A stretch of 64,000 nucleotides of DNA. Source: Acuticoccus yangtzensis. Its GTDB lineage: Bacteria > Pseudomonadota > Alphaproteobacteria > Rhizobiales > Amorphaceae. The stretch lies in contig NZ_MJUX01000001.1 in assembly GCF_001927245.1 (NCBI RefSeq), positions 124,001 to 188,000 of the forward strand. The letters are read 5' to 3'. The position numbers were made by a program, and so were the translations under genes. Shown here in pieces: positions 10,637 to 63,761 of the stretch (position 1 is its first letter; every line of letters begins with the position of its first letter). The notes under the pieces were generated by a model that was not told the origin of the DNA, made no database searches, and was given only the letters and a program-made list of their open reading frames with translations.

Positions 10637-11169
10637 TTCCACGTCCTTCTCGACCGATCTAAACTCCGCCCCGCCATTCTGCGTTGAATCAGAGTGCGCC
10701 ATTGTGCAGGCGGGGGGGTCATCTGTTGCGGGTGTCGGACTCCAAAGGCAACATCCACAACAAGTTAGCTGATGTGCAACTACCGGATACGTGTGCGCAG
10801 GACAACCCAAGAATGATTAGTCTGTACACAAAGACACTGGATATCCTGTTTATAAACAAGGTTTCTGATCAAAGGATATGCAGCTGACCTTCTGTGGCGA
10901 TAAGTTCCTCTTTTGGAACGTCTCTAGAGAGGGCCGGGGCACTCGAAAGTGGCAGCCCTTCACCATATTTTGGATCCGAAATACATCGAAACCTGTCAGA
11001 CAGGTGACGAAGCCCGACGCGTGCATTCCATTCCTGGGATGGCATTCATATCCTCGGAAACAATTCCGTGCAATCGCAGGTTTGCCTTTTAGAGCATTTG
11101 GGGACAGTTCATCGCATATCGATTGCGGGGTAGACGGCGCCGGAATGAGGTGCTAGATCCCACCGCGTT
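10637..11169. other. AT-rich intergenic region between regulator and tRNA gene
   Basis: About 530 bases with clearly lower GC than the surroundings, between the divergent XRE regulator and the tRNA-Thr gene. It should hold the promoters of both. A perfect 12-bp palindrome, TGTTTATAAACA, lies at 10847-10858. A 92-codon plus-strand frame (10878-11156) has no recognisable homology and is not called as a gene. Confidence 0.6.
10847..10858. promoter_or_regulatory. Candidate operator palindrome upstream of the XRE regulator
   Basis: Perfect 12-bp inverted repeat TGTTTATAAACA in the AT-rich leader, about 210 bases upstream of the regulator's start codon and about 310 bases before the tRNA. It has the size and symmetry of a dimeric HTH-protein site. 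Its function is inferred only from position and symmetry. Confidence 0.3.
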
Positions 11170-11465
11170 GCCGCAGTAGCTCAGTGGTAGAGCGCACCCT
11201 TGGTAACGACATTGCCTCTCCCGCGGGAAACCGCGGGATGAAAACCGCTCAAATTCGGGGAAAGCTGAAATGCCGATCCCGAGCCAAGTCCGAAAGCCCC
11301 AAGGGTCTGACGGAACGGTGTAGAGACTAGACGGGCGGCACCCTCCTCCCCAAGGGAAAGGGTGAAGGGATAGTCCAGACCACAAACGCACCACACGGTG
11401 CGGCGGCGAAAGCCGAAGTGGTAAGAAGGGTGAGGTCGGGAGTTCAATCCTCCCCTGCGGCACCA
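11170..11465 (+). tRNA. tRNA-Thr(GGU), interrupted by a group I intron
   Basis: Exon 1 is 11170-11204 and exon 2 is 11426-11465. Joined, they give a complete cloverleaf: acceptor stem GCCGCAG (11170-11176) with CTGCGGC (11455-11461), D arm GCTC/GAGC, anticodon stem CACCC/GGGTG (11195-11199 with 11428-11432), T arm GGGAG-TTCAATC-CTCCC (11438-11454), discriminator A and an encoded CCA (11463-11465). The anticodon loop reads TTGGTAA after splicing, so the anticodon is GGU (11202-11204) and the tRNA reads ACC/ACU threonine codons. G1-C72 and C2-G71 agree with threonine identity. The interruption falls between anticodon position 36 and position 37. Without splicing the gene would be non-functional. 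Confidence 0.95.
11205..11425 (+). ncRNA. Group I intron (IC3-like) in the tRNA-Thr anticodon loop
   Basis: A 221-nt intron with no internal protein gene. The upstream exon ends in U and the intron ends in G, as group I chemistry requires. P1 can form between exon GGU and intron GCC (11214-11216), a short pairing including the U-G wobble, as in the Azoarcus tRNA-Ile intron. P2 is a perfect CCCGCGG-GAAA-CCGCGGG hairpin (11220-11237). The P/Q region is near AAATTCGGGGAAAG. The R element GGTGTAGAGACTAGACGG leads into P7, where GACTA (11325-11329) pairs with TAGTC (11371-11375) in the S element. These blocks closely follow the small tRNA introns of Azoarcus and Agrobacterium. Self-splicing is inferred, not shown. 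Confidence 0.93.
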
Positions 11466-61593: not shown

Positions 61594-61704
61594 GTGCGGT
61601 GCGTCTAGGGTTCCGGCGTCGAACGACGTGTCTGGTCCGAGAGACGCAAGCCCTGCCGGTGGCGGGGTTACACGGCGGGCCAAAATCCCGGGAGGACGCC
61701 GCAC
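61594..61704 (+). promoter_or_regulatory. Guanidine-I (ykkC) riboswitch aptamer
   Basis: The conserved ykkC blocks occur in order: CTAGGGTTCCG (61605-61615), CTGGTCCGAGAG (61632-61643), ACACGGCGGG (61670-61679), then AAAA and CCCGGGAGG (61687-61695). P1 closes between GTGCGG...GCGTC (61594-61604) and GACGC-CGCAC (61695-61704). The class binds guanidinium and usually turns genes on. A hairpin CGGAC...GTCCG (61704-61727) sits directly after and shares the last P1 bases, so it may be the switch, although it lacks a U-run. The next gene is an ABC importer 155 bases downstream. Confidence 0.93.
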
Positions 61705-61842: not shown

Positions 61843-61859
61843 CAGAGGAGGAGAAGGTG

Positions 61860-62918
61860 ATGAAGACGACGACCGCCGCGGCCCTCGCCGCCGCCATCCT
61901 GGCCGGCGCTGCCGCCCACTCGCCCGCCAGCGCCGAGGAGAAGACCGACTTCTCCGTCTGCTGGTCCATCTATGTCGGCTGGATGCCGTGGGGCTACATG
62001 CAGGACTCCGGCATCCTCGCCAAGTGGGCCGACAAATACGGCATCACCATCGAAGCGGTGCAGATCAACGACTACGTGGAGTCGATCAACCAATATACCG
62101 CGGGAATGTACGACGGCTGCTCCATGACCAACATGGACGCCCTCTCGATCCCGGCCGGCGGCGGCGTCGACACCACCGCCCTCATCGTCGGCGACTATTC
62201 CAACGGCAACGACGGCATCGTGCTGAAGGGCGCCACCGACCTCGCCGACATCAAGGGGCAGTCGGTCAACCTCGTCGAACTCTCCGTCTCCCACTATCTC
62301 CTCGCCCGCGCGCTGGAGACGGTGGACCTGTCGGAGCGCGACATCACCGTCGTCAACACCTCCGACGCCGACCTCGTCGCCGCCTACACCACGCCGGACG
62401 TGACCGCCGTCGTCACCTGGAACCCGCTGCTGTCGGAAATCGTGTCGATGCCGGACTCCACGGAAGTCTTCAACTCGGCCGAGATCCCCGGCGAAATCAT
62501 CGACATGATGGTGGTGAACACCGAGACGCTGGCCGACAATCCCGCCTTCGGCAAGGCCCTCACCGGCGCCTGGTACGAGACCATGGCGCTGATGGAGGCG
62601 GGCGACGAAGAGGCGCTGACGGCGATGGCCACCGCCTCCGGCACCGACATTGCCGGATACCGCGCGCAGCTCGAGTCCACGGCGATGTTCTATACGCCGC
62701 AGGAAGCGGTTGATTTCATCTCCGGCGAGGGGTTGCCCGAGATCATGAGCTTCGTCGCCACCTTCCTGTTCGACCACGGCATCCTGGGGACGGGTGCGCC
62801 GAGCGCCGAGTTCGTCGGCATCCAATATCCGGGCGGCACGGTCACCGGCGACGAGGCCAACGTCACCTTGCGCTTCGATGACAGCTATATGCAGATGGCG
62901 GCGGACGGCGAACTCTGA
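61860..62918 (+). CDS. Guanidine/urea-region ABC transporter substrate-binding protein
   Basis: A 352-residue periplasmic binding protein with a Sec signal (TTTAAALAAAILAGAAAHS, cleavage after SPASA). It belongs to the NitT/TauT-like type found beside urea carboxylase genes (FSVCWSIYVGWMPWGYMQDSG, AGMYDGCSMTNMDALSIPA). Those carboxylases are now known to act on guanidine, and the riboswitch in its leader supports guanidinium or a derivative as ligand; this is inference. GAGGAGGAGAAGG precedes the ATG at 61860. It is the first gene of a three-gene importer operon. Confidence 0.9.
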   Translation: MKTTTAAALAAAILAGAAAHSPASAEEKTDFSVCWSIYVGWMPWGYMQDSGILAKWADKYGITIEAVQINDYVESINQYTAGMYDGCSMTNMDALSIPAGGGVDTTALIVGDYSNGNDGIVLKGATDLADIKGQSVNLVELSVSHYLLARALETVDLSERDITVVNTSDADLVAAYTTPDVTAVVTWNPLLSEIVSMPDSTEVFNSAEIPGEIIDMMVVNTETLADNPAFGKALTGAWYETMALMEAGDEEALTAMATASGTDIAGYRAQLESTAMFYTPQEAVDFISGEGLPEIMSFVATFLFDHGILGTGAPSAEFVGIQYPGGTVTGDEANVTLRFDDSYMQMAADGEL

Positions 62919-62939: not shown

Positions 62940-63761
62940 ATGCGCCTCATCAACCAGAGACCGGGCCGCGTCGGCGCCATTCTCCTCGGCGCGATCCCGT
63001 TCGCGCTGGCGCTCGCGGCCTATGTCGTCGGCAGCGCGGTCCGGCGGGCGGAGAACCCGCAGGACAAGCTCCTCCCCTCGCTGGAGGCGATGGGCACCGC
63101 CTTCGCCCGCATGGCCTTCGAGGCCGACCGGCGCAGCGGGGACTATCTCCTGTGGGTCGACACGGCCGCCAGCCTGGAGCGGCTCGCCCACGGCATGCTG
63201 ATCGCGGCCGGGCTCGCCATTGTGGTGGGCGCGCTCATCGGCATCCTGCCGGTGGGGCGCGCGCTGCTGTCGCCGTTCGTGTCCGCCTTCTCGCTCATCC
63301 CGCCGATCACGGTGCTGCCGATCCTCTTCATCGTGCTCGGGCTCGGCGAGGCGGCCAAGGTCGGGCTCATCGTGGTGGGCACGGCGCCGCTGATGATCCG
63401 CGCCGTCGCCCAGTCGGTGCTGGACCTGCCGCGCGAAGAAATCATCCGCGCCCAGACGCTGGGCGCGTCGACGATGCAGCTCACCGCGCGGGTGGTGTTG
63501 CCGCAGATGTGGCCGCACCTCGTCCGCGCGATCCGCATGGGGCTGGTGCCGGCGTGGATCTTCCTCGTCTCGGCCGAGGCGATCGCCGCGACGGAGGGGC
63601 TCGGCTACCGCATCTTCCTCGTGCGACGCTACCTCGCGATGGACGTCATTATCCCTTACGTCCTGTGGATCACCTTGATCGCCTACGTGCTGGACAGGGC
63701 GCTCGCACTCGCCTCGCGCCGCCTGTTCCCGTGGGCGCACCTGTCGGGCGACGCACTGTGA
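62940..63761 (+). CDS. ABC transporter permease (TauC/NitT type)
   Basis: A 273-residue inner-membrane permease with six membrane helices and the EAA loop REEIIRAQTLGASTMQLTAR preceding VVLPQMWPHL, where the ATPase docks. Helix pattern and length fit the BPD_transp_1 family paired with NitT/TauT-type binding proteins. It lies 21 bases after the binding-protein gene and overlaps the ATPase gene by 4 bases (GTGA). Confidence 0.93.
   Translation: MRLINQRPGRVGAILLGAIPFALALAAYVVGSAVRRAENPQDKLLPSLEAMGTAFARMAFEADRRSGDYLLWVDTAASLERLAHGMLIAAGLAIVVGALIGILPVGRALLSPFVSAFSLIPPITVLPILFIVLGLGEAAKVGLIVVGTAPLMIRAVAQSVLDLPREEIIRAQTLGASTMQLTARVVLPQMWPHLVRAIRMGLVPAWIFLVSAEAIAATEGLGYRIFLVRRYLAMDVIIPYVLWITLIAYVLDRALALASRRLFPWAHLSGDAL

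Follow-up and report, generated by a model that had tools for sequence, protein, structure and literature searches.

Group I introns are known from a few other bacterial tRNAs, and the tRNA-Ile(CAU) intron of the betaproteobacterium Azoarcus is the type specimen of the IC3 subgroup. It resembles the tRNA-Thr(GGU) intron described here in its size (near 205-221 nt), its P1-P9 layout and its anticodon-loop host, and differs in the isoacceptor, Ile(CAU). Ile2 hosts were reported in Acidovorax and Burkholderia (PMC8450103). The most frequent host in our surveys is tRNA-Leu(UAA), whose introns share with the Thr introns the core, the small size and the GAAA loops on P2 and P9; however, they are inserted within the anticodon, after CUU, in a class II tRNA and use the guide GAG, whereas the Thr introns follow on the 3' side of the anticodon, and their host is a class I tRNA. 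The alphaproteobacterial tRNA-Arg(CCU) introns (Agrobacterium; BbgpI of Bartonella) are, like the one reported here, small, ORF-less, located after U36 and hosted by an unannotated tRNA gene, and self-splicing of the Bartonella intron was observed both in vitro and in vivo (PMC7717549). The two differ in the guide, which is GGG for CCU in the Arg introns and GCC for GGU in the Thr introns.

The locus was studied in a window of 64,000 nt (the whole stretch of DNA that was analysed) from Acuticoccus, a marine bacterial genus. An earlier note on this DNA had claimed that a 221-nt intron splits tRNA-Thr(GGU) in the anticodon loop and that the two exons make up a complete tRNA-Thr with CCA. Both claims were borne out by ARAGORN, host and boundaries being right to the base: in intron mode the program places a tRNA-Thr(ggt) of 75 bases, interrupted by an intron of 221 bases, exactly at 11170-11465, and the manually joined exons fold into the same complete cloverleaf with the encoded CCA (Table 1). 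Without intron mode, ARAGORN finds zero tRNAs in the whole 64,000-nt window; thus the gene would escape ordinary annotation, and the case shows why tRNA annotation overlooks intron-split genes. The covariance search proposed in the earlier note gave a match to RF00028 at 11195-11390, with E=1.7e-11 locally and E=6.1e-11 across the 5.04-Mb genome, which contains no other match; its 48.3 bits fall slightly below the Rfam gathering score of 50. Two order-level relatives with Leu hosts score 56-62 bits against the same model. In addition, the folding energy of the insert is -94 kcal/mol versus -71.9 for dinucleotide shuffles (z=-4.8).

Table 1. Features of the intron-split tRNA-Thr(GGU) gene and its upstream region (positions in the window)
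Feature	Positions	Strand	Remarks
Putative -35 element TAGACG	11131..11136	+	predicted from upstream conservation
Putative -10 element CTAGAT	11153..11158	+	predicted from upstream conservation
5' exon of tRNA-Thr(GGU), nucleotides 1-36	11170..11204	+	ARAGORN in intron mode and after joining of the exons; equals the intronless gene of G008
P1 5' strand GGU, at the 3' end of the 5' exon	11202..11204	+	U36 in U.G pair at the splice site
221-nt group I intron at U36/A37, with terminal G	11205..11425	+	RF00028, ARAGORN, empty-site orthologue, covariation
Internal guide sequence UUGCC	11212..11216	+	GCC pairs with exon GGU (P1); GCC in 17/17 Thr introns
P2 hairpin, GAAA loop	11220..11237	+	two-sided changes in 7/7 pairs
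P3 5' strand, partner 11333-11338	11245..11250	+	100% of cells paired; two-sided changes in 2 pairs
P4-P5 with P and Q elements	11255..11282	+	
P7 5' strand GACUA, R element, partner 11371-11375	11325..11329	+	100% of cells paired
P8	11339..11364	+	two-sided changes in 4 pairs
P7 3' strand UAGUC, S element	11371..11375	+	
P9 domain, terminal GAAA hairpin	11379..11422	+	
3' exon of tRNA-Thr(GGU), nucleotides 37-76 with CCA	11426..11465	+	ARAGORN; G008 comparison

The assignment to group I, made in the earlier note from P1, P2, the P/Q/R/S elements and P7, agrees with the RF00028 match, with the covariation described below and with the anatomy, since P1, P2, P3, P4, P5, P7, P8, P9 and P10 were each located in the insert. 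P3 (CCGCUC with GGGCGG) and P7 (GACUA with UAGUC) together form the usual pseudoknot, and for P10 the UU of the guide is able to pair with A37-A38 of the 3' exon. The terminal G is present at the end of all 17 complete Thr introns. The U at the 5' exon end, paired with the guide G in P1, was counted in 15 of the 17, the two exceptions being alignment shifts in sequences that themselves read ...TGCC. Six-frame translation of the 221-nt intron gives short frames only, with no homing endonuclease ORF, for which the intron is too small. The intron is of the small tRNA type, IC3-like (the Azoarcus/Agrobacterium kind); the subgroup name rests on anatomy, namely the small size (221 nt), P1-P9 only and the tRNA anticodon-loop host, and was assigned without a subgroup-specific model.

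The proposed structure was assessed by covariation in 17 Thr introns from several orders, for which 56 pairs were first defined on the window sequence and then counted. In this set 93.0% of the cells are paired, versus 83.9% after shuffling; two-sided changes occur in 25 of the 56 pairs (shuffled mean 11.4) and in 76 cells (20.7 in the shuffled sets), and pairing falls to 29-49% when the partners are slid. The score of the whole structure exceeds all 500 shuffles and every slid version. Both helices of the P3/P7 pseudoknot core are fully paired and contain two-sided changes, such as the replacement of U-A by C-G on both sides of P7 in two sequences. P4 is silent in this test because it is invariant.

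We propose, with high confidence, that the sole tRNA-Thr(GGU) gene in Acuticoccus is split at U36/A37 by a small group I intron of the tRNA type, which is predicted to be self-splicing and is inherited vertically as a passenger. Guanosine-initiated two-step splicing is established group I chemistry. Here, the exon GGU would pair with the guide GCC to form P1, the U.G pair marking the 5' splice site, and an external guanosine held in P7 would attack after U36; the freed exon end, positioned by P10, would then attack after the terminal G, and ligation of the exons would yield a complete tRNA decoding ACC and ACU. Having no ORF for a homing enzyme, the intron would now be passed on vertically within the genus as a fixed and tolerated passenger. 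For Acuticoccus, transcription and the self-splicing chemistry are inferred, and protein helpers may be needed.

The intron (204-221 nt) is present in tRNA-Thr(GGU) of all eight Acuticoccus genomes searched (Hyphomicrobiales, Amorphaceae). Sequence upstream of it in the window matches all seven other genomes of the genus and downstream sequence five of the seven; on the strength of these flank matches the locus is orthologous across the genus. The pattern for an uninterrupted tRNA-Thr(GGU) gene, which tolerates no mismatch and also has no match in some order-level genomes, was absent from all eight genomes, and two sister-genus genomes each had one match. A search for intron-free orthologues, suggested in the earlier note, thereby succeeded: the intronless gene of the sister-genus genome G008 is identical to the joined exons at 75 of 75 bases and represents an exact empty site. 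Excision of the insert would restore an intact tRNA-Thr(GGU) sequence, the joined exons folding as a tRNA that is predicted to be functional.

A second GGU gene is absent among the other 42 tRNAs of the genome, which include Thr(UGU) and Thr(CGU). The assembly is a draft (96% complete, 29 contigs) in which one unassembled GGU gene is possible, but this is unlikely, since the same absence is seen in the seven other genomes of the genus. Because the intact-gene pattern has no match in the eight genomes of the genus and the empty site lies in a sister genus, splicing is, as far as the sequences go, the only visible source of tRNA-Thr(GGU) in Acuticoccus. The earlier note had reasoned that splicing would be essential if this were the only GGU threonine tRNA. 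In agreement with this premise, no other such gene occurs among the 42 tRNAs and the intact-gene pattern has no match in the eight genomes; the host gene is probably essential, and the conclusion goes no further because tRNA-Thr(UGU) might weakly read ACU/ACC. In seven ORFs of the window ACC and ACU make up 139 of the 245 Thr codons, ACC being the commonest in these sampled genes, so that the genus would rely on a ribozyme for the tRNA reading its commonest Thr codon. The Acuticoccus gene and the exact empty site in the sister genus together provide a clean system for asking whether splicing limits ACC translation.

An exact-pattern scan of about 85,000 species detected, in addition to Acuticoccus, a Thr(GGU) intron at the same site in Paracraurococcus, Siccirubricoccus and Roseicella (Roseomonadaceae), in Pseudaestuariivita and one uncultured Rhodobacteraceae genome, in a genome of Magnetovibrio and in an unplaced alphaproteobacterium. 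RF00028 matches occur in 31 of 385 sampled alphaproteobacteria, and five of the 31 have Thr(GGU) hosts (G000, G147, G183, G235 and G331, with G147 truncated by a contig end). An RF00028 search of 399 genomes from the phylum added no Thr(GGU) host among the loci inspected, and the viral contigs searched contained no Thr(GGU) intron. Four pattern matches, three in the genome collection (L060, L061, L071) and one viral (L141), proved to be chance matches in protein-coding DNA. Other intron hosts seen were Leu(UAA), Leu(CAA), Arg(CCU), Lys(UUU) and Lys(CUU), and, outside the alphaproteobacteria, Arg(UCU) and Ile(CAU), with two hosts of the Ile(CAU) type; the intron splits given by ARAGORN are unreliable for Leu and Lys hosts (Tyr, Ser or Phe is reported), and hosts were re-read from the exon ends. 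The alphaproteobacterial tRNA-Lys(UUU)/Lys(CUU) introns (L084, L086, L078, L095, L098) occupy two different anticodon positions, and Leu(CAA) hosts were seen twice in alphaproteobacteria (L045, L085). The literature, mainly openly licensed papers, yielded no earlier report naming Thr(GGU) as a host. Thus the statement of the earlier note that Thr(GGU) is not among the listed hosts stands, but it is not the sole unlisted one, as Lys(UUU/CUU) and Leu(CAA) are unlisted too. Thr(GGU) appears to be a new host for a known intron class, not a new kind of element. Inserts of 22-49 nt in cyanobacterial tRNAs have been called group I introns (PMC5733544); they are too short for this class, and we do not regard them as a precedent.

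How the intron came to be in tRNA-Thr(GGU) is a separate matter. Introns of other tRNAs, mostly Leu(UAA), may have repeatedly changed their guide and entered tRNA-Thr(GGU), a history that is quite possible, if somewhat short of probable; it bears on origin alone and does not conflict with the proposed self-splicing group I explanation. Trees were built from about 200 columns with the guide region left out. In the best tree of 45 introns the Acuticoccus introns cluster (support 93/95), yet four changes of the Thr label are needed and two Thr introns (L097, L059) fall among Leu introns; the larger tree, in which two introns labelled Lys (L148, L202) look like Leu hosts, needs seven. The Arg(CCU) introns are separate from the genus clade in the smaller tree, whereas in the larger one a single long-branched intron of the three (L087) falls inside it. 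Against repeated entry, about 200 alignable columns give weak resolution, and the AU test does not reject a single Thr clade in either tree (p-AU 0.281 with 45 introns, 0.288 with the larger set). Both histories therefore stand, a single origin followed by spread and loss as well as several origins.

Viral contigs proved rich in introns with the core seen in the window. Twelve distinct viral introns (L142-L194) combine the target GGU with a guide that ends in TTGCC and a 3' exon that begins with AA. In the examined cases their host gene encodes a phage major head protein, the two exons aligning to neighbouring stretches of PHROG 3437 and Pfam Phage_capsid_2 (for example, L162 8353-9459); in L166 the intron is located at a different GGU of the same capsid gene. 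Introns in phage capsid genes were already known (PMC3706429). The capsid introns share with the Thr introns the kind of core, the GGU target, the UUGCC guide and the AA that opens the 3' exon, and the capsid target (A/U)CGGU|AA(A/G)GGC resembles the tRNA site CUUGGU|AAGGG; in contrast to tRNA-Thr(GGU), their host gene is protein-coding and viral. The twelve form a clade (93/94) that is placed, weakly supported, beside one Thr intron, and the AU test does not reject a joint clade of Thr and capsid introns (p-AU 0.469). Their common descent is neither shown nor rejected, and the likeness of target and guide could be due to convergence. That the GGU-guide introns are one mobile lineage, moving between the phage capsid gene and tRNA-Thr(GGU) by guide-matched reverse splicing, is an idea we consider unlikely; if true, phages would be a vehicle bringing introns into essential alphaproteobacterial tRNA genes. 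The common target and guide suggest a testable route for a change of host.

The intron might instead be degenerate and unable to splice. The tRNA gene would then be a pseudogene, its codons being covered by Thr(UGU) and Thr(CGU). The sub-threshold RF00028 score is in line with such decay, which we nevertheless judge very improbable: the catalytic core is invariant or covarying across the genus and other orders, the exons remain perfect tRNA halves, and there would be no cognate tRNA for ACC, the Thr codon used most often in the sampled genes. Moreover, a pair of promoter-like blocks is kept upstream. A (T)GCTA block is located at a fixed distance upstream of the tRNA in all eight genomes of the genus, and a TRGAC-like block at its own, roughly constant distance from the tRNA in seven, the eighth having TTTACG, whereas the surrounding bases mostly differ. 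A generic consensus promoter scan found no site, and from their conservation we infer that the blocks are a promoter. Finally, removal of the insert by a protein endonuclease, as for archaeal introns of the bulge-helix-bulge type, which form a separate, endonuclease-removed class in the review of Hausner (PMC3984707), may be practically dismissed, for the insertion adjoins the archaeal canonical position but has the full group I anatomy, covariation in P2, P3, P5, P7, P8 and P9, and the RF00028 match.

Intron-split tRNA genes were also observed in viral contigs, in a phage and in plasmids. Many viral contigs (L145, L179, L161, L190 and many of L144-L208) carry tRNAs split by such introns, mostly Leu(UAA) and also Lys(CUU) and Arg(UCU); some of these contigs could be prophage or host DNA. 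In a 2014 review, every phage intron then known was in a protein-coding gene (PMC3984707). In the isolated Gordonia phage Daredevil (L140, NC_048021.1, ~41.8-42.1 kb), a full tRNA-Lys(UUU) gene next to the integrase is interrupted by a group I intron of 238 nt. This phage was grouped, in a 2024 study of tRNA-dependent lysogeny, among those integrating into the host tRNA-Lys-TTT without a copy of their own (PMC10865867); its intron is the probable reason why annotation missed the gene. The plasmid pCTX-M3 (L136 3950-4260; NC_004464.2, ~61.8-62.1 kb) contains an unannotated tRNA-Leu(UAA) gene whose group I intron shares about 73% identity with that of the window. In the plasmids inspected this tRNA adjoins a small AAA ATPase gene and the resistance gene aac(3)-IId, and the intron was matched in 1,271 plasmids of Escherichia, Klebsiella, Salmonella, Acinetobacter and others. 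It resembles the alphaproteobacterial introns, which may hint at the source of the resistance module. Elsewhere in the window, in an ordinary arrangement, a Guanidine-I riboswitch (61594-61696, 86.2 bits) lies upstream of two genes, one for an NMT1-like binding protein (61857-62918) and the other for an ABC permease (62940-63761).
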